Shown in pieces: positions 26,240 to 38,091 of a DNA stretch of 64,000 nucleotides (within the stretch, counting starts at the first letter, position 1; every line of letters begins with the position of its first letter). Both the position numbers and the translations under genes were made by a program. Source of the stretch: Isoetes taiwanensis (Eukaryota > Streptophyta > Lycopodiopsida > Isoetales > Isoetaceae); contig JAJEKV010000013.1 of the NCBI GenBank assembly GCA_021234155.1, positions 2,759,252-2,823,251 of the forward strand, written 5' to 3'. A model generated the notes under the pieces. That model saw only the letters and a program-made list of their open reading frames with translations. It was not told the origin of the DNA and did no database searches.

Positions 26240-27556
26240 AACGCTGGAGGGCCAGGCGTTATCTACCCCATCTACGAATAAAACTGCAGTTTTTTTTTTT
26301 TCCCCGAAAATAGTAGCATCATTCTTAACGCCATCATCTTTTCATGCGCCTTTATACTTTTAGGGCTCTGTTTCCTTTCAATCCGTTGCCCAGAATATGG
26401 ACCACGAGGAGGTGGATCGACAGAACCACATGCTTCACCTCTCCATACACGCACTATAGACTTTTGTGCGTGCTTGTAAGCTTTCACACAGGCCGCCTTT
26501 TTATGTAGCATTATGGCTTTATCCTGCATTTCTCTGTTGTTTGCACCCCACAACTGAAGACATGGCGCCTTCTGGATAAAATATGAATCAATTACGCATA
26601 CATGCTGAATTTAATGCTTTTCCCGAAGGCAGCCATAGGAGTTCGCTTTTGAGGTAAGAGTGTGTAGTTTCTAAAGTAGATTTCCTCAAGTTATCTTGTG
26701 ACATATCAGGATGAAATTGGGTTAGAAGGCTGTTAGGTAAATGATAACAGAGCTAGAAATTTCTGCGAGTGCAGCATCTGCGTCTTGTTTGTCTTGTGTT
26801 GATGACCAGAAAAGCATGAGTTTGAAAGAAGCCTGCTTTCCGAGTGAACTTGCATGAGTATTAGCAACACAAGCTGTCTCCTGACTAGCAGCTGAAGCAG
26901 GGCTTTGGTGGTTGTTTGCAGGAATGATGACAACATATCACTCTAAGGTCACAAGCTGCTGAAAATACTGAACCATACTGTTATGCATGTAAGTGCGTGA
27001 GAAGAACATGTTTTAAATGTAGCGAATGGTAAGAAAATGACAGACCAAGTTTGCTGACATTATAATCTCTCTTGCATGCTTTGAAAAAATTCAGGGGCCT
27101 TTTCTATTTCTCCGATAGTCTGTGTTGTGGCTGCCTTCAGAGTGAAGCAAAATCAATTGCCTCTTTAAAAACAGGCATAAGTTGCTTTTGGTGTAAGTTT
27201 TTATAGCCCTAGGCAGGGTATCAGTATAAGCTGAAAACAGAGGGTACAAACCTCTGACAGGGTGGATTCTTGTTACAAAAGAATCGAAAAAATTAGGACT
27301 TGAACATATTGTCTCCTTCCAAAAAGAGCCCTAGCAGACCTTTAAGGCAGCACCAGAGCTATTGAACTCCAATAGCAGATCTAATAGGTCTTTGTATATC
27401 AATTTGGGATTTCCATTTCCAATCTCTTGTAGTCCACTCCATCCTTTTCATTGCCTAAACAAGCTCTATCAAGGTCGGTTCTAATTTTCTTTTATTATAA
27501 TGTACTTTGGATCGATCCTTATTCCTACATGTCTCAACAAAGATTCTTGACATGTA
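26240..27556. other. Gene-free stretch
   Basis: No coding signal recognised on either strand. Contains a T-run at 26287-26301 and otherwise unremarkable AT-rich DNA. Confidence 0.5.
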
Positions 27557-27611
27557 CTTAATACCCAAAGCCTTGATGACATTGAATATCCAGAAATACT
27601 ATCCTCTCAAC
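27557..27611 (+). repeat. Flanking direct repeat, left copy
   Basis: About 56 bases beginning CTTAATACCCAAAGCCTTGA recur at 38035-38091 in the same orientation, on the other side of the MULE. Differences are a few substitutions and single-base indels. Confidence 0.85.
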
Positions 27612-27705: not shown

Positions 27706-27915
27706 GGGTGAAAATACCTTTACCCTGGTTTTGGTGATTTCGTCGCGGTGACTACTCTCCCGCGGAATCACTAACCCTCCTGCCTCGTTATCCGTACCTG
27801 CCCCGTTATCCGTACCTGACAAGCTCCATTTTATACCTTTCGGCGGAATCACATCTGCAAAATACCGCCGGACGGAATCACCACCCTTTATTCTACGCGA
27901 CCGAATCACATGGAA
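27706..27915 (+). repeat. MULE left terminal inverted repeat
   Basis: Matches the reverse complement of about 37725-37991 through GGTGAAAATA, GTTTTGGTGATT, CGCGGTGACTACTCTC, AATCACTAACCCTCC, TTTTATACCTTT, GGCGGAATCAC, AAAATACCGCCGGACGG and CCCTTTATTC. The right arm holds an extra 60-70 bases in the middle (around 37820-37890). Confidence 0.9.
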
Positions 27916-28105
27916 TTGATCCTGCGGGGTGGAATCACCATATACCGTAATATTCTTCCCTGTGGAATCACCGCGTATGATAATATTCTCCCCCGTGGAA
28001 TCACCGCGTAAATATTCTCCCAAGTGGAATCACCACGTAAATATTTATATTCTCCCCCGTAGAATCACCGCGATAATATTCTCCCCCGTGGAATCACTGC
28101 ATACT
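27902..28105 (+). repeat. Outer iteron array (GGAATCACC motif)
   Basis: From 27760 to 28100 I count ten copies of (G)GAATCAC. From about 27930 they fall into a rough tandem of 28-35 bp built as GTGGAATCACCGCG plus TAATATTCTCCCCC. The right end of the MULE has the same motif only three or four times, so the array expanded on the left side alone. Confidence 0.85.
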
Positions 28106-28574
28106 ATTCCTCGAGAAAGAATCATCTGGAGACCTTTGAATCTGTAATAACTGCAGGCAGGGAGGAAAAAGTGTTAGATGGTTCAAACCCAATTCCATTA
28201 AAAAATGCTTTAAGCGAAGCCTATGTTACTTGAAGATCATGAATAAAATTAATACTAAACCAATGGTAGAAAAAAACAAGCTCAGCTACTCTAAACTGCC
28301 CAGAATTTTTCTGGTTGGGGATTTGAACCCCTTGCCAATATCGGCAATGCCCTTTTCATGCCATTTTATATGAAAAGTTAATCTTTCTATATCCTTACAG
28401 ATCTAACAGCATGTCTATCATGCAAAACAAGATAAGAAAATGTAGGAGGCATATTTGCAGAAATAAATGGTATCCCCGGGGATGATAGCAGGGTTCCTTA
28501 AGGGCAAAGAAAACCTTATTGACAAGATTGAAGGTACAAAAAAAAAGAAATAAGAAGATTTAGCAACCCTAAAA

Positions 28575-28932
28575 GTGAAGCGTTTTTATTTTAAATCTAT
28601 TGTCTTGAAAACAGAGGAGCTACACGAAGTGGCAGACGGCCTGCAAGGAGTTGCAAAGGTAATTGACGAAGTGGCTGATGCCATGGAAGAAGTGGAACAA
28701 AATTTTGAGAAACATGCAAATGGAAATAATAAGGAGATTGCCGACAAGATAAATTTTAAGCTAATTCTTGAATTTAGGGCTTCATCTCTTTCAGTTTTCT
28801 TTAAGATCCAGCGCCCTTGTTTCATGTTTGCAGGTAAAAACTGCAACCAAGAATATAAAGAAAGATGTCCAAGATGTCAATACTGCCTTAGATAAACTTG
28901 ACAAAAGCGCAGAGAAAGATATCTTTGCTTGA
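28575..28932 (+). pseudogene. Coiled-coil gene fragment, probably captured by the MULE
   Basis: First part, in frame from 28575: charged heptad-like helices (TEELHEVADGLQGVAKVIDE, then EEVEQNFEKHANGNNKEIAD). After a stretch without coding character, a perfect acceptor TTTGCAG (ending 28833) opens VKTATKNIKKDVQDVNTALD, then KLDKSAEKDIFA and a TGA at 28930-28932. The two parts have the same style and would join as one amphipathic protein of about 90 residues. I see no clear GT donor for the first part. It has no relation to MULE genes and sits between the outer and inner arrays of the left arm, as captured host fragments do in Pack-MULEs. Family not recognised. Confidence 0.5.
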
Positions 28933-29779
28933 TGGAAATGTGGTTTTGAATAGATGGGCATGAGTAATCAGAACAAATTTTGCTGCTCCCGGTGAAGCCA
29001 GTATCACAGAAGGGCATCCCAATATGTGGGTCTTGAATACATCTCCATATCTGGAAGAATCCAATTCAAAATTGCAATAATGCATTGGCATGGGCTTAAA
29101 TAGTTAGAAAATGAATGGAATCGAGCACTAATTGAGCACAAACTTTTTCTCACCGAGTGAAGAATTTGTTGGGATTTTCGGGGTAGAGCCTGAGAGTTTC
29201 AGAGATGTAAGGCCACCCCATTGATCCGAGAGGAAGGGGCAAGCCTCTCAGATTTACTAGTCCCATACATTGTTGAGCAACGGCCCTGCTTTTCTACTCC
29301 CTCGCTTTTTCACCCAAGTCATCAAAAGCCCTGCTTTAATCCCCCGTTCTGGCCTTGCATAGCGCTTATTGGACGGGTTCCGCTTCCGCTCAAAAATGGT
29401 GCATGTCTCTCATGGAACGGATCTGAAGCTTAAGAGGTGGATGTTTGAAGCAAAACAGTGGAAAGATTAATTAGATTTTGTGTTTGTGGAGAAAGAAATT
29501 GACATTTCGAACTAGGCTTCCTATTTGAAAAGAAAGGAGAATAACAAGAAAAAGGGAGCTACCGGAGAAGAGCCATACAACCATTACCGTTTTTCACGGT
29601 GGTATGTGAAAGTAGCCTCTCGTGATCTCGGGGCCGCCCAACAACCGCGGGTTGTGCCGGGTTGTGGCTCCCGTTGTTGCCTCCCCTGGTCGCCTCCCCG
29701 CGGGCTTCCGTCATTGGCTCCTCCTCGGTGGCCCCTGTTGTGGCTCTGTCATCGCCCACGTGATAGCTTCAAAGATCTT
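28933..29779. other. Left-arm filler without recognised genes
   Basis: Has no counterpart in the right arm, where about 37640-37720 connects the outer and inner repeats directly. From 29620 it turns GC-rich (GGGTTGTGCCGGGTTGTGGC) like the inner arm. An insertion or capture in the left arm would explain the asymmetry. Confidence 0.5.
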
Positions 29780-30350
29780 CTCAAGGACTTAGCCTCCTCA
29801 ACCCCAACCTGTTCAATGCGCTCAAGATACTTCTACCCCGGATTGGGGATCACGGAGCTAGAGATCCCATCCTCCTAATCCCGAGGCTTCGGCCGGGATC
29901 GGATTTCGGGACCCGTTTTTCCGTCATCGACACATGCGTGCATTGCCGTCGATCCGGGCCGTCCGAAACCCGGTCGAATCTCCGTGAGTCGCGGGGAGAT
30001 CCCTCCTCGGGATCCACGGTGATCCCCTCCAAAGGATCACGAGGGACTGGTCGATATCCTCCCGATCTCCGCCCGTGGTGATCCCCTCCTCAGGGATCAC
30101 GAGGGATCGGTCGATATCCTCTCCGATATGGGCCGTGGTGATCCCCCTCTCAGGGATCACGAGGGGCTGGTCGATATCCTCCCCGAGAGCTATAGTGGTG
30201 ATCCCCTCCTCAGGGATCACGAGGGCTCGGGGGTCGATATCCTCTCCCGATATCGCCGGGTGATCCCTCCTAGGGATCACGAGGGCATGGTCGATATCCT
30301 CTCCCCGATATCGGCCGTGGTGATCCCTCCTCGGGATCACATCCATGATG
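29780..30350 (+). repeat. Inner inverted arm with 60-bp iterons, left copy
   Basis: Begins with CTCAAGATACTTCTACCCC, shared with the right arm near 37610-37630 in inverse. From 30020 a 60-bp unit repeats: GGTCGATATCCTC recurs at about 30048, 30108, 30168, 30231 and 30288, each unit with GTGGTGATCCCCTCCTC and GGGATCACGAGGG. The unit contains its own palindromes (GGTGATCC with GGATCAC; GATATC). Ends at the GATCACATCCATGATG shared with 37030-37045. Confidence 0.92.
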
Positions 30351-30879
30351 TATTGTGATCCCATCCTCGGGATCATCCCCCGACCCGCTATCCGCCCATC
30401 GACACCGACCGCCTGCCACGATGCCCGCATGCCACGTGGGTCAAATCGCGGACCGCCGGGTTATCCCGCCCTGAATCACGCCCTTGCAATTACGAGCCGC
30501 CCACGGGTAGCATCCAAGCTGGCCTTTCAAATTTAAGGCCGACGACCGAAGTTATTACCGTGACGCTGCCAATAATGCCGCCACGCGGACAAGTGATCGA
30601 GGAGGGAATTCCCACTCACGGGAGTGCAATTTTCGGATTGCTCAACACTACCTCAAGGCCATTTTCTCGAGAGGAAAGGGCCCGATCAGCGGCGCCAGAG
30701 TCGCCGTGGTCTCGACACGGCGCCAGAAGTTACTTTTACTTGTTTAAGGTAAAAAATCGATCAATAGACCCCTACGACGACCTAAGCATCGCTTTTTAAC
30801 CTTTGCTTTGTTTTTAACGCTTTTTTTTTGCCTCGTCCCTTGCAGATGGACTAATCTGTTAACCCCGAAATTAGCTTGA

Positions 30880-33084
30880 ATACCTCCATAAATGAGAACT
30901 GGGGCCCGCAGATGAGGCTGCAAATTCTCTTAAGTTACCGGGATCGCTTTTAGATATAGCCGGGTTTGAATCAGATACGAGGTGGAATCCCCTTCCAAAG
31001 AGAAGAAAAAGAGTGAAAAGCCTGATCCGACAACAGTTGTCGAGCCCCCTGCAGATAAAAATCCAGCCTCTGTTGAGGCTCATCGGCAGGAGGATATTCA
31101 TGGGGCTCAAGGGGATGGCGATGTTGATAGGGAAGATTTCTTTGAGCACCCATTGTGAAGAGCCCTGCATCACCGCAGATGAGTTGGCCCGCAGATGGAG
31201 GTGCTGTGTAGACGCCTCAGCGATAAGAGCTACGCCAGAAAGGTTGATTTAGAAAATCATAGGTTCGTGGCACACCCGCATTTATGAGAATTTCAAGCTC
31301 CCCCGATGCTCCAAGGGGTCGGATTCCCGGCAACAAACAAAGAAGGGTGAATCCAAGAAGAGGGACTATGGGAAGATAGTGTGGCTACCGATCTTGTGAT
31401 CCGGATTTCAAGTATGCCCATAACTTGACCAGAAACTTCAAAGGACTAGATGAGCCGCAGCAAAGATTGGCGGATCAACGATAGATATTGGATTGCTTCT
31501 ACCCGAAGGGCGAGCTGACTTCATCAATTTGCGTGTTCGTGAGAAAGAAAGCACAGAGCTCGAATCCCGTGAGAAGCAAATAAGGGAAATTGGCTCGAAT
31601 TGCTCTGAGCCATGGCAATGGGGTCACCGAGTCGAAAATTTGGCCCAAAAGCCCTAAATGGGATTCCGAAAGCAGCCCAAGTGGACGCAGACGCATTGAG
31701 TGCCGAATTCGTGGCTGCCGCAGATGATAATCTGAAATCTCCCGTGTTAAAAGGAGGACACCACATGGTTCTGGATGCACCATTGAAGCCGGTTTCGACT
31801 AAGGCCCTACGAGAACCGCTATCATGGCTCCCAATCAAATTATTTCCAAGAATCCGGAGCCCGATGACCTAAGAGGAGCCGCTTGATTCCAAAGATAAAA
31901 CCCAGCCAGATAAGATTTCATTATTTGTATTGCATAGATCCCTCCTTTCACATTGCTGTTTCGTCCTACCGTAGAGAGGTCCAAAATGAGAGATGGACCT
32001 TTAATTTCACATTGACATATCCAATTGTTGTGGAGAGTCCGCTACTTAAGGTGGGCAAGAAATCGCAATCCGTGGAGTTCTTCATCACCAGGCAGAGGCC
32101 CAAAATTCCAAACAATTCCAAGTGGCCTCGGAGATTTGGCATGCGAGGTGGATGCCGACCGCATTGGAGCTTTACCGTGGAGTGTAATTTTGCTACTACA
32201 GTTCACTTTTTGCTCAAACAATTGGAATTTCGCTTTTAATTTGCACATCCTCTCCTCGTGGTACTTGTCCATTCGATTCCTATTCGTAAGAGATGTCACC
32301 ACGTAATGGTTCACCCCCACGATTCTGGATTATTTCTAAGTGGAAGCAAGGCAGGTTTAGGCGGGCATATGACCAATTTGCAAAGTTGATCCCGCCATCA
32401 CCGCTTTGGCAAAGCCGCTCAATGGAGAATTCAAAGATGTTCAAAGACTACTACATTTCAAGTAATGCAAGGTAACATCCGCTTGTGAAGTTAAAAGATC
32501 CCCTTCATTTTTAATTGTATGGTGATTAGTTTTATCGAACTGCAGTGGCCATTGGAGCCTGTTTATATTAGTTGTTGATCAATTGGCATGCCAGAAACTG
32601 AACAAGCCCTGCCCATGCATTTTGCACTTTGATTCTTATGATCCCCTGCATGCAGATGTTCGAGGCTTCATAACTTTGTGAGTTATTTCAGGTGTACACA
32701 TATTTATGGTTTCAGCATAGGTAATTAGGTTCTTATTTTAGGGATTGAACTCGGATTACATTTCCAGGTTCTTGAATGACCTATTCAAGAGGTGGAAGCA
32801 CGAGGAATCAGCACTTCACAATGCTCCTTGCATACTGATGGATGCTCCCCAGCAACATAACAGCCAAGATTGTGGTGTATATGTGGTAAATTATGTGAAT
32901 AGATTTATTCGAGATGTTTGCAGCACCAAAGATCAGGTAAATCACAATTCTGAATGACTTAAGAATTGAGATTTTCGTAATTGTCACTTTTCGATTGTTC
33001 TTTTCAGTTGTCATTACCCGGGATTGGTTCCGTAAGGAAGAGATAAACAATACCCTAAAGTTGTTTCATTACAGCTTTGCGTAA
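30880..33084 (+). pseudogene. Ulp1-type (C48) cysteine peptidase gene of the MULE, decayed
   Basis: Ulp1-family enzymes cleave SUMO or similar conjugates after a Gly-Gly end. The full catalytic triad is visible: GHWSLFILVVDQ (His at 32550) and CILHFDSYDPLH (Asp at 32631) in one exon (32546 to about 32674), then DAPQQHNSQDCGVYVVNYVN (Cys at 32871) in the next (about 32742-32936, donor GTAAAT). A further piece, DWFRKEEINNTLKLFH, follows an acceptor TTTTCAG at about 33006. The splice phases between these pieces do not all fit, so single-base changes have accumulated. Upstream, 30985-31165 reads as a charged disordered tail (ESPSKEKKKSEKPDPTTVVE), as in the long N-termini of transposon-borne ULPs. 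The region between 31200 and 32540 is broken. Faces the transposase gene. Confidence 0.8.
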
Positions 33085-33357
33085 ATCGAGGACTGCCTCA
33101 GCCCAAGGGAAATCCACTTTCTATTTGCCCGGAAGGCCCTGATCGCTTCTCTCGCCCGTTAATACCGTCTCACGTTAAATGGCCCCCCGAAAATAACAAT
33201 GGATCTAATCTATATATTTGAATGTAATTTGAGTAAACGGTATGCACATATGAATATAAGAAATGAACTTTCTCGGAAATATTGAGACAATTTCGCGGAA
33301 ATATTGGTCAATGTGAAATATTGGTCAATGTGTCAATGTCCTTGATAATTATGTTGT

Positions 33358-33805
33358 GATCCCCGCCCCCGGATCACAACATTATTATTGGGGATCCCTT
33401 CCTCCCGGATCACACGCCCTTGAAAAAAACATTATTTAATTTCAATGGTATGGATATTATTTTCGATATTAAGGGATATTCGTTGTAGATGCGGATGATC
33501 CCTCCTCCCGATCACAACATAATTAATGGGGATCCCTCCTCCAGGGATTACACGCCCGCTAAAAAAGCATTATTTAATTTCAATGGCATGGTTACTATTT
33601 TCGATATTAAGGGATATTAGATTTGTAGATGCCTGGATGATCCCTCCTCCCGGGATCACAACATAATTAATGGGGATCCCTCCTCCGGATCACACGCCCA
33701 TGAAAAAAGCATTATTTAATTTCAATGGTATGGTTACTATTTTCGATATTAAGGCATATTCTTTCAGATGCCGTGGTGATCCCCACCTCGGGATCACACG
33801 TCCGG
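33358..33805 (+). repeat. Central minisatellite (about 140-bp unit, just over 3 copies)
   Basis: Units start near 33358, 33497 and 33638, with a partial one at about 33776. Each has two GATCCC...GATCAC blocks (GATCCCTCCTCCCGGGATCA type) separated by AACATAATTAATGGG, followed by CACGCCC, an A-run, ATTATTTAATTTCAATGG and TTTTCGATATTAAGG. The GATCCC...GATCAC core is the same as in the subterminal arrays. It lies exactly between the 3' ends of the two convergent genes. Confidence 0.9.
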
Positions 33806-34369
33806 TTCTTAAATGTCCCAATTTAACCTCAATGGTTTGATTTCTTAAATGAGTTATGTTTCCCCTAAGTTATCGTGATGTAGTGAGAACAATTGAAAGT
33901 AAACTCATAAATGACTTAACATGTTCTGCTCAACCAATACTTACAATATCCCTCCATCTCAACTTGCTTCCAGCTCTTCTTGATTTCCTTGTCCTTCCCT
34001 GCTCCCAAGCTCTATCAAAGGCTTGAGCCCCGCCAAACTATTTCCACACTTCTCTTCAATTGCCAAGGTGGGGAGAGTTGTTATGGCTACCATGTTGGTG
34101 CCCCCAACATCATTCATTCTCTAGCCTAGTGTCGAAGTTGTCTCATAAGAGAATCAAGAGCAACAAGCATGCTAGGATCTTTTTTTCGCCCCTTGACACC
34201 ACTCTAGCAATTACTTCTGTAAGGATGCACGAAGTCTTATCCAAGTTAAACCTTTGTCCCTTTGGGAGAGAGACTCCTCTCCCAAGCATACAATGTCGGG
34301 CCACATCTTCACATGGGTTTCCCTCCCATGGAACTATCTCCTCACATGGCCTCAACGGGTCCATGCCCC

Positions 34370-36619
34370 TCAAAGAATTGTCCCATATTGGGAACCAAGC
34401 ACATGTAAAAGATCCCGATCTCTCAGAAGTTGCCCAAAGAATTGCATAACCTTAACCTGGTGTTTACACAAGTTGCCCTTGGCTCCCCAAGGGCAGCCAC
34501 AAAGATGCCCAATTCTTGTGTGCCCCTGCTCACAAAGTAAGGACCTAGCCCTAGAGCACGCTTTGCACTTCCGCTCACCTTCCTCGGGTTGGTGAATGTG
34601 ACTTGTTCATCGCTAATCTTCCTTGCACCACGATGGCGACTCTATTATCTCCTCCCGGGATGTGTTTACTACAAAGCCCGCTTCCTTCATGGACCTACAA
34701 CACAAAGGAATCATATAAAACAAGGCTAGAGAGAAGGATTAGATGTGTAGGAACTATACCCGATGTATGTCATGTGTGTGTCTCCACGCTATTGGTTAGG
34801 ATGTAGAGCAGCCAATCAATCCTCCTTCCTCAAGTGCACGCTTAGAAATGCCCAGGCGCCTCTTCAAGGCACAATGCCATGCCTCTATGGCAGCATTTGT
34901 CTCTTGGTTAGAGTGAGGGTACATCCTTGTAGCCAACACCCATTGACAAATGTTTTTAGTCCACTCCTTACTCATGTAGGCTGCCAGCTTAGGGTATTGA
35001 GGATACTTCTTCACTAACTCTTCCAATTTCCTGGTGGCCTCTTTCCTCACAGCTTCCCTGTACTCTTCCCCATATTCATTGTCTCCAAGAGGGCCTTCTG
35101 TCCTGTACATAATGTAACCAAGCTCCTTGAACAACTCGTTTCGATGCACCTTGTTCTTCACATTCTTACGCTAACCATTTAATCCATGCCCTCCTCACGC
35201 TGCCAAATGCCTATTTGCACGGGTACATTAGGGAAAACCTACAAAAATAACCAAGGTTAGTACATATGGAATCACAACCAAGGATTAAGTTTCAACAACT
35301 TACATTCTTTACAGCCTTTATCTTAGCATGGGCATCATCCGTAATGATGCAAGAAGGTTGCCATTCAGGATCATCTTGGCATAAGGATTCCTTTAGTGCT
35401 TGCATCCACTTTGTTATAGCTCCACTCTCTTGAGAATTGGTTAGAACGTAGAAGCCAATGGCAAACCATTGGAATACTCATCAAAGGCGATGAGTGTGAA
35501 AAGATAGAACCTGCACAAACATACATACCCAATAAATCAATGTACAAAATGAAGGTTCAAGAAAAATCATACCTCTTGTCATTTGTTTTGAAGGTAGAGT
35601 CCATGCAAATGGCTCCATTCTTACCAAATCTCAACATGGATTCCCTTTGGATTGGAGTCATAACTCCTAACTGAAACAAGTCTCCTTGCTCATACATGAA
35701 TACCGAATCTTGGTGTTGTTGAACCCACATATAGATGCTAGTTGGAAGATCATCATGCAGCTTCCATGTGTTACGAACAACTCCCTTCTCAACATTGTAT
35801 ACGTCCCCAATTTTGAGCACATCATCCCTACACATGCTTTTTCGCCCATGCACATCACGCTTCAATCTCCATCTCTTCATGCATATTCATGACACTACGC
35901 GGAGTGTGCCATTGCACAAGCTTTTCTCGGACCCAATCCTTCAATTCTTGTGAGATCCGTGGTGCTAACTTGAACTTAATCCCTTGCCGAGGGTCAATGG
36001 ACTTACCATGGCAAGGCAAACTTTGGATATTCTTGTGATCAAAACCATAATAAGTGATATGTGAAAAATTCTCGGAAGGAGATAGAGTTGCCCGATTGTG
36101 AAATGGCACACGGCAGCCCCTACGCACACCCCCTCTCCCCTCGAACCCTTTTTCCTCAAGGCGTCTACCCGGTGGACGTGGTCCATCATCAACCACATGA
36201 GTGTTTGTCTGTCATGTCTTGAGGTCCATATGAACACCAATATCTCAGATTATGCAAATACAAGTTAATGTAGACCTAAGTGTAATTCTAAAAGAACCAC
36301 TTCAAATGAATCAAAATAACTTCAAGCAAACACAATAACTTCTTGGTTCACTCAATGATGATTTCCAATAAAAACACATGAATCTAACAATGTCTATACC
36401 TCTTCAAGGTCAAGTAGGAATCTTTGTAGGGTCTTTTTAACACTCTCTCAAAATTTCTGAGACTCTGGAGATAGAAGTTGCAAGGTGCTTGGGAATTCTT
36501 TCTCGCCCCCAAGAATAAAATCTTGAACCCGGGTTGGTGTGGATGTAGTAGTTCACAAAGCAAAGATCCGCTTCCACCCCTTGAATAGTAGGTACCGATG
36601 TCTTGCCATGATCAAACAA
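34370..36619 (-). pseudogene. MURA-type MULE transposase with SWIM finger, decayed
   Basis: Cut-and-paste DDE transposase that acts on the MULE ends. The minus strand gives an N-terminal region (KIQSLPCHGKS-like, then RISQELKDWVREKLVQWHT), KRWRLKRDVHGRKS, MWVQQHQDSVFMYEQGD, then AICMDSTFKTND (first Asp, 35599-35601), LFTLIAFDEYSNGLPLA, TNSQESGAITKWMQALKESL and CIITDDAHAKIKAVKN (second Asp, 35337-35339). A 65-bp GT-AG intron (35239-35303) precedes VFPNVPV. ETNAAIEAWHCALKRRLG supplies the catalytic Glu (34883-34885). A SWIM finger CGCPWGAKGNLCKH (CxCx8CxH) lies at 34460-34501. Single-base frame shifts are seen near 35885, 35470, 35190 and 35170. A possible upstream exon with LGGEKEFPSTLQLLSPESQ lies at 36430-36530. 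Confidence 0.88.
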
Positions 36620-37024
36620 CCCATTTGAGGTGATTCTGGGCCGTATTTCAGTCCTTAGTCAGAGAAAAATACTCAAAATATAAATGGGAATGCATGTCTC
36701 TTCATTGAAATGACTTAGTAATCGACACCTCTTCTCTCTTCTCCTCTAGTTCGTCCATGCCTGCGGCATTCCGGCTCCTTTACCGTGCTACTTCGACATG
36801 CAGCAGAGAGAAACCAGAGAAACAACGTACTTAGGAGTGATCCCGGAGGATGGTCTCAGAACCTACACGTGCCCTCATTCGAGTGGCCAGTCCGTGCATG
36901 GGCTGGCAAGTTCAAACCTGGACCGTTGGGTGGGTCTACGCTTCAATCTCCAACGCCCATACGCTTCCATATACCGCCTCAGGAATCAAAGTGCAATCAA
37001 CGTCTTTGATCCGGAGGTCGGAAT

Positions 37025-37640
37025 CGCCACGGGCTGATAACCGTCATGGATGTGATCCCGGAGGAGGGGATCACCACGGCCGATATCGGGAGAGGATATC
37101 GACGAGGGCCTCGTGATCCCAGAGGAGGGGATCACCACGGCCGATATCGGGAGAGGATATCGACCGTGCCCTGTGATATCGACCAGGCCCTCGCGGATCC
37201 CTGTGTGAGGAGGGATCACCACGCCGATATCGGAGAGGATATCGACCAGCCCCGCGGATCCCGTAGAGGAGGGGATCACCGAGCATGATCCCTGAGGAGG
37301 GGATCACCACGCCGATATCGGAGAGGATATCGACCAGCCCCTCGTGATCCCCGAGGAGGGGATCACCACCGGACGATACGGGAGAGGATATCGACCAGTC
37401 CCTCGCGGATCCCGGAGGAGGGGATCACCGAGCGATCCCGAGGAGGGATCTCTCTGGACGGCGGAGATTCGACGGGGGTTTGGACGCCCGGATCGACCGG
37501 CTGTGTAATGCATGTGTCAAGACGGGAAAACGGGGTCCCCGAACGGATCCCGTCGAGAACGCCTGGGGATTTCGGAGGACGGGATCTCTAGCTCCAGGAT
37601 CCCCGAATCCAGGGTAGAAGTATCTTGAGCCTTCAATCGC
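37025..37640 (-). repeat. Inner inverted arm with 60-bp iterons, right copy
   Basis: Reverse-complement counterpart of 29780-30350. GAGGATATCGAC recurs about five times between 37090 and 37400, each with GAGGAGGGGATCACCACG. Units vary more in length than on the left, and at 37165-37200 a unit is partly duplicated. Confidence 0.92.
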
Positions 37641-37724
37641 CATCTATCACGGGAGCAAGCCGCCATAGCCCGCATGAAAAACCTCCCAGAATAACAGGAC
37701 GTCAAAAATTTGAATTTTTACTGG

Positions 37725-37991
37725 GATGGTGATTCTGTCGCGTGGAATAAAAGGGCGGTGATTCCGTCCGGCGGTATTTTACGGAGGTGATTCCGCCAAA
37801 AGGTATAAAACGGAGGGCCAGGATGGACTCTGCAGATGGATGGCTGGGATCCATCAGAAGGTACACCTGAGCTGTTAGGTACGAATAACGGGGCCTCCAG
37901 AACGGATCCCGTTTTTGGAGGGTTAGTGATTCTGCGAGAGAGTAGTCACCGCGATAGAATCACCAAAACTAGGGTAAAGCTATTTTCACCC
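37725..37991 (-). repeat. MULE right terminal inverted repeat
   Basis: See the left repeat for the matching blocks. It ends TATTTTCACCC at 37991, followed by the target duplication TAAGAAAAG. Confidence 0.9.
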
Positions 37992-38034
37992 TAAGAAAAG
38001 GAAGAAGACAAAAAACCAACTTTTACTACATATC

Positions 38035-38091
38035 CTTAATACCCAAAAGCCTTGATGACATTGAATATTAAGAAATACTATCCTCTCCAAC
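38035..38091 (+). repeat. Flanking direct repeat, right copy
   Basis: Partner of 27557-27611: CTTAATACCCAAAAGCCTTG, GATGACATTGAATAT and AGAAATACTATCCTCT are shared. It lies 35 bases beyond the MULE target duplication, whereas the left copy lies 86 bases before it. Confidence 0.85.

Follow-up and report, generated by a model that had tools for sequence, protein, structure and literature searches.

What is the stretch at positions 27706-37991 of the window (the whole 64,000-nucleotide piece of Isoetes taiwanensis DNA analysed here, from contig JAJEKV010000013.1), one long transposon or two, and what might a transposon gain from the SUMO-type peptidase encoded there? A sequence-only reading had taken it for a single 10.3-kb Mutator-like element (MULE) of the Kaonashi type with complete ends. 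We find instead two nested elements, and we regard this as practically certain: a 7.8-kb MULE with terminal inverted repeats (a TIR-MULE, element B), which carries convergent genes for a ULP peptidase and a transposase, lies inserted in a short, related, non-autonomous Pack-MULE-like element (element A). The evidence comes from a search of the window's own genome (1.66 Gb; the window lies on C941), in which loci are designated L and contigs C. The search for C48 peptidase matches scored 150 of 800 candidates and that for transposase matches 133 of 2109, and copy counts are to be read as lower bounds.

The inverted ends on which the single-element reading was built are present (27706-27909 against 37991-37729), as is the 9-bp target-site duplication with one mismatch outside them. 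The inverted repeats of the stretch as a whole form two blocks, 27706-27909/37729-37991 and 29820-30348/37044-37631, separated on the left by about 1.9 kb that finds no match, which raises the question of two nested elements. The features concerned are as follows; the second version of the locus is described below.

27706-29811, one target-site copy and 37641-37991 (about 2.5 kb): outer element A, broken by B; empty-site copy, L013
27697-27705: left target-site duplication of A, CAAGAAAAG in the window and TAAGAAAAG in the second version of the locus
27706-27909, plus strand: left terminal inverted repeat of A
37729-37991, minus strand: right terminal inverted repeat of A
37992-38000: right target-site duplication of A, TAAGAAAAG
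29820-37631: inner element B, a TIR-MULE with ULP and transposase genes; the first G of its end is missing in the window assembly
29812-29819: left target-site duplication of B, TTCAATGC in the window and TTCAATCGC in the second version
37632-37640: right target-site duplication of B, TTCAATCGC
29820-30348, plus strand: left arm of B, with a tandem palindrome array at 30018-30340
37044-37631, minus strand: right arm of B, with a tandem palindrome array at about 37052-37429

The decisive locus is L013 (C1053:9141140-9144346), a 1.7-kb element with A ends that runs uninterrupted across the point at which 29820-37631 is inserted in the window and is thus an empty site; among 20 A-end loci it is the only one that spans this point as a single match to an empty-site probe. 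The whole nested locus, flanks included, was assembled a second time (C1065:1053900-1066700, comprising L072 and L070). This second version, which could be a haplotig, a homeolog or a segmental duplication, holds the same A and the same B, with the perfect inner duplication TTCAATCGC on both sides. The empty site and the B copies found elsewhere together identify the ULP-bearing element as B and assign the outer ends to A. The sequence-only reading had proposed a search for copies sharing the ends of about 200 bp, and had itself named ends belonging to different elements as grounds for giving up its case, and that is what the other copies show. None of the 20 A-end loci (window included) has a match to ULP exon 1 or to the transposase N-terminus within 1.5 kb inward. 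That the whole of 27706-37991 is one ULP-carrying element, as its inverted ends and target duplication at 27706/37991 had suggested, is ruled out, with next to no probability left to it, by the empty site, by B's own duplication and by B copies that have other flanks and end at the inner position. The two families are nevertheless related, since 27 of 45 positions align between the ends of A and B and none of 1000 shuffles aligned as well. The stretch passed for one long-ended element until other copies revealed two nested ones, which is a caution.

The end of B (29820-30020) has at least 41 matches, two of which are the window's own ends (40 of 104 candidates scored), and these form 10 facing pairs besides the window; the spacing is 5-8 kb in eight of them, 3 kb in another and 17 kb in the last. 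Six of the pairs were fetched for comparison. All six copies begin GGCTCAAGATACTTCTACC and match both the ULP and the transposase (shortened in L063), so that the convergent pairing already noticed in the window recurs throughout, and five have perfect 9-bp duplications, L063 being the exception. A further 28 B-end loci, several of which are ends of elements already counted, divide into 22 with ULP exon 1 or transposase coding sequence, five with the transposase 5' flank and one (L054) with neither. Across seven copies, window included, the inverted arms of B are about 410-690 bp long with an identity of 0.78-0.99. Transposase, peptidase and palindrome arrays also occur together in two further subfamilies, of each of which one copy was examined. 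L075 (C576), a 7.9-kb element with its own perfect duplication AGAAATAGG, joins the five B copies and the second version of the window locus in showing the 9-bp duplication by which MULEs are recognised. Rfam gave no match at its gathering threshold.

Gene models for the ULP and the transposase were read from related copies. Those of the ULP gene are as follows.

30846-32177, plus strand: ULP exon 1, with the start as in copy L059, in which 443 codons are open
31193-31275, plus strand: C2H2-like zinc finger in exon 1
32260-32471, plus strand: ULP exon 2
32546-32677, plus strand: ULP exon 3, with the catalytic His (GHWSL, 32547-32567) and Asp (HFDSYD, 32625-32642)
32768-32936, plus strand: ULP exon 4, with Gln and the catalytic Cys, QQHNSQDCGVYV (QDCGVYV, 32865-32885)
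33007-33074, plus strand: first part of ULP exon 5; the 3' end of the gene is provisional

The Ulp1-type triad of His, Asp and Cys that had been recognised on the plus strand is borne out by matches to Pfam Peptidase_C48 (E = 2.6e-6 for a 70-amino acid piece of the window, 1.2e-12 for the exon-joined protein from related copies). The active-site His, Asp, Gln and Cys align with those of SENP7 (3eay, E = 3.2e-8) and yeast Ulp2 (E = 0.0032), and two SENP7 sequences and yeast Ulp2 are the only solved structures matched at E <= 0.01. All four residues are retained in L078 and L076. Three of six copies have neither stops nor gap codons in exons 2-4, and the 443-codon open exon 1 is seen in L059 only (one of six). 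Judged by these alignments, the B enzyme is a cysteine peptidase resembling ULP2/SENP7, whose long N-terminal region includes a C2H2-like finger, and it looks able to cut SUMO off proteins. The spacing of the finger stretch is that of a classical C2H2 finger. In L059 exon 1, zf-C2H2 was the only Pfam match at E <= 1, with neither DUF1985 nor DUF287 appearing, and neither was matched at E <= 10 by window frames that precede the catalytic exons; AlphaFold modelled exon 1 with a mean confidence score (pLDDT) of 37.6. Two copies add little here: L076 has a ULP, but with its upstream part disrupted it says nothing on exon 1, and L075 retains Asp, Gln and Cys but has an unrecognisable exon 1 and no His-bearing exon 3 piece that could be found, so that with its ULP broken it says little on the finger either way.

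The best C48 places in the genome among those scored (L001-L008) are not B. Two other ULP loci, L073 and L074 (C974 and C1049), belong to a different repeat that lacks the palindrome motif and any match to the B transposase. Their ULP-like exon reads VPQQPD..SCGLYVMAF, and its 91-amino acid frame is common to many C48 places among the matches scored.

On the opposite strand lie the recognised exons of the transposase gene, convergent with the ULP gene.

35572-36119, minus strand: transposase exon with the first Asp (MDSTFKTN); gene start provisional
35305-35508, minus strand: transposase exon with the second Asp (ITDDAH)
34759-35238, minus strand: transposase exon with CIWHVRRAW (GIW and frame-broken in the window copy) and the catalytic Glu (IEAWH)
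34438-34695, minus strand: transposase exon with the SWIM zinc finger (CxCx8CxH)

The DDE motifs and the SWIM-type finger motif previously read on this strand are present. The Pfam MULE domain (PF10551) is matched at E = 1.3e-14 by the window read-through and at 3.8e-19 (69.4 bits, cut-off 27.6) by a composite of several copies, which also matches the RNaseH-like domain of ZSWIM1-3 (E = 2.6e-9). The SWIM match of the composite (E = 0.0017, 18.3 bits) falls just under the cut-off of 19.6, with CxCx8CxH present. PF03108, the MuDR-type N-terminal domain typical of VANDAL transposases, was not among the matches at E <= 1 for the composite, which is incomplete at its N-terminus. A scan of viral contigs with a piece of the transposase found nothing. 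At least several dozen other loci match the transposase at 45-51% over near full length in one frame (e.g. C1025:6231713, C930:2992271 and C912:1399731); most lack stops, with open frames of up to 749 amino acids, and they would appear to be a separate intronless group of intact elements or domesticated genes.

Comparison of the three subfamilies indicates that the peptidase has long been kept. Their ULP proteins are 70-74% identical over 145-263 codons, with proportions of synonymous (pS) and non-synonymous (pN) differences of 0.75-0.78 and 0.16-0.19, respectively, and pN/pS of 0.21-0.25 (L075 against B: 74% over 146 codons, pS 0.75, pN 0.16; L078, on C1082, against B: 70% over 263 codons, pS 0.75-0.76, pN 0.19; L075 against L078: 74% over 145 codons, pS 0.78, pN 0.17). 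By exon the ratio is mostly 0.13-0.26, rising to 0.40 in exon 3 (28 codons, L062 against L075), and it is 0.42-0.43 in the comparable half of exon 1. Saturated synonymous change with low non-synonymous change implies that the peptidase has been kept by selection over a long time, and on this count of substitutions we conclude that it is under long-term purifying selection; the dN/dS check suggested from the window alone thus has a clear answer, and a recent neutral capture of the ULP is rejected. The transposase of L075 is 86-89% identical to that of B and the transposase pieces of L078, the third subfamily, 81-84%; between B and L075 its dN/dS is 0.06-0.13 in five of six comparisons and 0.23 in one. 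In exons 2 and 4, synonymous change in the ULP exceeds that in the transposase of the same pair, so exchange between elements is possible. Within B, where base errors in the copies blur the counts, 13 non-synonymous variants stand against 10 synonymous ones in the catalytic exons (ratio 0.35, with a one-sided P of 0.013 in one of several tests of this kind), and the transposase exons have ratios of 0.27-0.57, none significant alone.

A second feature that recurs with the genes is a set of tandem arrays. Both arms of B and the gap between its genes hold arrays of the palindrome GTGATCCC-N7-GGGATCAC, and A has an array of its own.

33357-33798: intergenic tandem array between the convergent genes, unit of about 138 bp, with the B palindrome core
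27929-28104, plus strand: subterminal tandem array of A, with the GGAATCAC (GTGATTCC) motif

The window copy of B contains 28 GTGATCCC half-sites, often as GTGATCCCcTCCTCcGGGATCAC, against 0.42 expected (maximum of two in 200 randomisations), and 39 of the 41 occurrences of GTGATYCC in the 64-kb window fall within 27706-37991; the motif was chosen after the arrays had been seen, and tandem copying inflates such counts. With the genes as modelled, GTGATCCC is absent from the region of the ULP exons and introns and from the transposase region in all seven copies, single half-sites being found in the transposase 5' flank of four of the seven. One GTGATTCC lies in the transposase region of each of the seven, within an intron in the window. 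Better evidence than the half-site counts is that the core is kept across arrays of differing unit: L075, which has two arrays between its convergent genes, retains GATCCCCTCCTCCGGGATC as the core of units of 98, 75 and 37-38 bp, whereas the units of B are about 60, 89 and 138 bp. Among the A loci, all 19 have 4-16 GTGATTCC each and 18 lack GTGATCCC.

How does B relate to known elements? Kaonashi (KI) MULEs with KIU peptidases are reportedly known from Arabidopsis through work by Hoen et al. in 2006. As in Kaonashi, the C48 peptidase gene of B is opposite in orientation to the transposase and there are many copies. There are also differences: KI elements are described as non-TIR MULEs (PMC2528002), but the inverted arms of B run to hundreds of bases, and B has a transposase with no match to Pfam DBD_Tnp_Mut in the part covered by the composite, a finger-like exon 1 without a DUF1985 match and a SENP7/Ulp2-like catalytic domain. 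With TIRs and neither domain match, B is not Kaonashi by the features tested, and the earlier assignment to that type is not supported.

ULP-bearing MULEs are in any case diverse. Those of Arabidopsis, melon, rice and grapevine come with or without TIRs, in both orientations, and include Jittery-like elements, and the grapevine study found ULPs in many unrelated families and considered repeated capture (PMC2528002). Grapevine and melon ULP TIR-MULEs and Jittery-like MULEs share with B a ULP together with TIRs, in either orientation, and 9-bp target duplications, which occur in MULE families of that study; what sets B apart from them is that the sections consulted mention neither palindrome arrays nor a finger-ULP protein (PMC2528002). 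A survey of MULE clades reports zinc fingers and other domains, and antisense PMD open reading frames in several plant clades (PMC6446971). The Ginger1 transposase combines an H2C2 finger, DDE and Ulp1 in one protein, and Ulp1 domains are cited for hydra, lancelet and plant Mutators (PMC2836005). Like these, B is a DNA transposon encoding a protein with a zinc finger and a Ulp1 domain, but Ulp1 lies within the transposase there and in a separate, convergent gene with a C2H2-like finger in B. Among SUMO proteases of the ULP2/SENP6-7/SPF type, SENP7 and yeast Ulp2 give the best structure matches of the B catalytic domain; the B protein differs from that group in being transposon-encoded, with a long, divergent N-terminal part that bears the C2H2-like finger. 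Among the titles and abstract openings listed for the literature on ULP1, zinc fingers and Mutator, none dealt with a C2H2-ULP protein in a MULE, which is not proof of absence. We file B as a variant of the known ULP-bearing MULEs.

In function, the nearest parallel to B is the anti-silencing of VANC and Kaonashi. Tandem repeats in non-coding VANDAL DNA contain short motifs to which the element's own VANC proteins bind, removing methylation there (PMC5735166, PMC10398659), the motifs bound differ between related VANDAL families (PMC5735166), and the ULP-bearing VANC/KIU genes are said to act like VANC, the role of the ULP domain being called unknown (2026 review, PMC13317346). B likewise has a short motif in tandem repeats, confined to non-coding DNA and differing between related families. 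VANC differs in having DUF1985/DUF287, of which none was found in B, and in its demonstrated demethylation; B, moreover, is a TIR element.

What, then, might the peptidase do? The proposal to which we incline, tentatively and at rather less than an even chance, is that it removes SUMO at the element's own chromatin. The peptidase would act in trans as an anti-silencing factor: it or a partner, possibly the transposase, would be recruited to the GTGATCCC-N7-GGGATCAC arrays in the arms and between the genes. There the peptidase would take SUMO, probably in chains, off silencing proteins or the transposase, which would keep the element expressed and let transposition go ahead. With motifs that differ between A and B, each family's system would be kept from opening other families. 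SUMO as substrate, targeting to the palindromes and an effect on silencing are all steps that we infer. The sequence-only reading had already supposed that the peptidase serves the element by acting on SUMO-dependent silencing or on the transposase; long-term purifying selection supports the first part of this, that it serves the element, and leaves its target conjectural.

A sharper version of the proposal, which we think unlikely, makes B a self-contained, sequence-addressed SUMO eraser, in which the ULP2-type peptidase's own C2H2 finger would read the GTGATCCC palindromes and the enzyme would desumoylate silencing complexes there. Were this true, B would represent a second, independent solution to VANC's problem, and motif and protein would have diverged together between families (GTGATCCC in B, GTGATTCC in A).

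Several findings weigh against chromatin targeting, and against the finger in particular. The zf-C2H2 match on L059 exon 1 (E = 0.0046) is below the cut-off. Among 17 distinct loci (after L039, L047 and L048 were dropped as short chance matches and the ends of one element merged), the four finger ligands stand in one frame in six, one of these with a stop inside the finger; in the other 11 a ligand is missing or the frame of the finger is broken. Within B, exon 1 is nearly unconstrained (125 non-synonymous and 38 synonymous variants, ratio 0.89, P 0.29), and the finger codons have a ratio of 0.59 (P 0.32). L075 keeps its palindromes, yet its ULP is broken, and A elements hold motif arrays without a ULP match in the 1.5 kb examined, which fits transposase sites equally well. 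From the literature, KIUs were judged unlikely to act on SUMO (PMC6117577), and the interaction of Arabidopsis MOM1 with SUMO is reported as not required for silencing (PMC6084981). Finally, if the excess of changes at CHG triplets described below is a trace of methylation, then the window copy is silenced rather than open.

The strongest alternative, quite conceivable though we would not bet on it, is that the arrays are transposase sites for assembly of the transposition complex and that the target of the peptidase is the transposase itself or one of its partners, from which it might take off an inactivating or degrading SUMO, with no chromatin targeting at all. It would account for the arrays being densest in the terminal arms of B, for A elements keeping arrays of their own and for the relatedness of the A and B ends; conservation between B and L075 is highest in the transposase and that between B and L078 lowest in the exon 1 half of the ULP, and a role of Ulp1 proteases in transposition has been suggested, according to the Ginger paper (PMC2836005). 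It fits less well with the array that separates the convergent genes (L075 has two there), which lies kilobases away from either end, where end-binding is unneeded, and the arrays are longer than a transposase should need.

Rather improbable is a peptidase that lowers SUMO on host silencing or defence proteins generally, away from the element, the palindromes having an unrelated role as promoter, insulator or 3' end. The contrast within B between catalytic exons under purifying selection and an N-terminal part without clear constraint would suit such an enzyme, and the link between peptidase and palindromes is itself conjectural, but the persistence of one palindrome core across arrays of differing units would go unexplained. 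That the ULP gene is a captured passenger of no use to the element is very unlikely: MULEs often capture gene fragments, repeated ULP capture was considered in grapevine (PMC2528002) and single copies with a broken ULP exist (L075), but saturated synonymous and low non-synonymous change between three subfamilies, retention of His, Asp, Gln and Cys in L078 and L076, and a ULP in all six B copies speak against it.

The reason that ULP peptidases are so frequent in plant transposons is an open question, which the B family makes testable. B offers a long-selected peptidase resembling the SUMO-chain-editing class together with a candidate DNA address, of which a related family provides a natural one-base variant.

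The letters of the window copy call for some care. Identity between the window and the second version of the locus is 99% at 28000-29000 and over the 300 bp of left flank with which the comparison begins; it drops to 81-87% in the right flank and, taken in steps of 500 bp, to 60-94% inside B. Against the six-copy majority the two versions have 114 differences in common, and of the sites at which they differ from each other, the window departs from the majority at 366, the second version at 688 and both at 97. Over the 912 exon codons counted, the second version shares neither of the two window stops and one of 12 gap codons, and it is no cleaner, showing seven private stops and 46 private gap codons. 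Assembly error may therefore account for most of the frame breaks counted in the window, although five of 11 extra bases in four single-exon spans are common to both versions, so some breaks may be real. Window stops and frame breaks were rejected as proof of decay, being mostly absent from the second version of the same insertion.

Differences between copies (window 29820-37631, L059-L064, L070 and L072) cluster at CAG, CTG, CCG and CGG. In the window copy 106 of 228 CHG triplets are changed relative to relatives, against 658 of 6211 others, and an excess of change at CHG triplets is seen in all seven copies. The commonest change of CTG there is to CCG (11 of 29 changed), which is no deamination product, and over all sites C>T and G>A together (108) equal T>C and A>G (108). 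We infer a base-calling or consensus error of the assembly in methylated repeats, to which deamination may add; the alternative is true independent change after duplication. Under either reading, stops in the window copy are no ground to call it dead, and CHG miscalling may inflate pseudogene counts in the Isoetes taiwanensis genome.

Element A deserves some description in its own right. Its one-base mismatch in the target duplication may not be real, since the second version reads TAAGAAAAG on the left; by our own arithmetic, chance alone would give fixed ends a 9-bp duplication with no more than one mismatch with P ~1e-4. The 204-bp left end has at least 41 further matches in the genome, a few places being matched in two pieces; 40 of 1040 candidates were scored. 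A is non-autonomous, has MULE-family ends and contains captured host exons, as Pack-MULEs do, and in L013 the opposite end lies at 1.7 kb.

28476-28918, plus strand: captured host gene fragment in A, 96.4% identical to the donor-like gene L071; its division into exons and intron is our own reading

The captured exons suspected from the window alone are thus confirmed, in A and not in B. L071 (C1046:3858900-3862400) places them in a longer, gene-like context and is the apparent donor; from an upstream frame we would guess that its product is perhaps plastid-targeted. In place of this fragment, L013 has a stretch that reads as a fragment of a leucine-rich-repeat gene. A resembles Pack-MULEs in being short and non-autonomous, with captured exons and intron and the leucine-rich-repeat-like fragment in L013, and departs from them in sharing an end pattern and a related motif with the ULP-bearing B.

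Just outside its target duplication, A is bracketed by a 60-bp direct repeat (91.7%; 27550-27608 and 38028-38087), the left copy of which is also present in the second version. Elsewhere in the window, Pfam gave no Copia-type reverse transcriptase match in 1794-2411; the minus-strand frames at 1794-2748 nevertheless resemble what we take to be pieces of such an enzyme.

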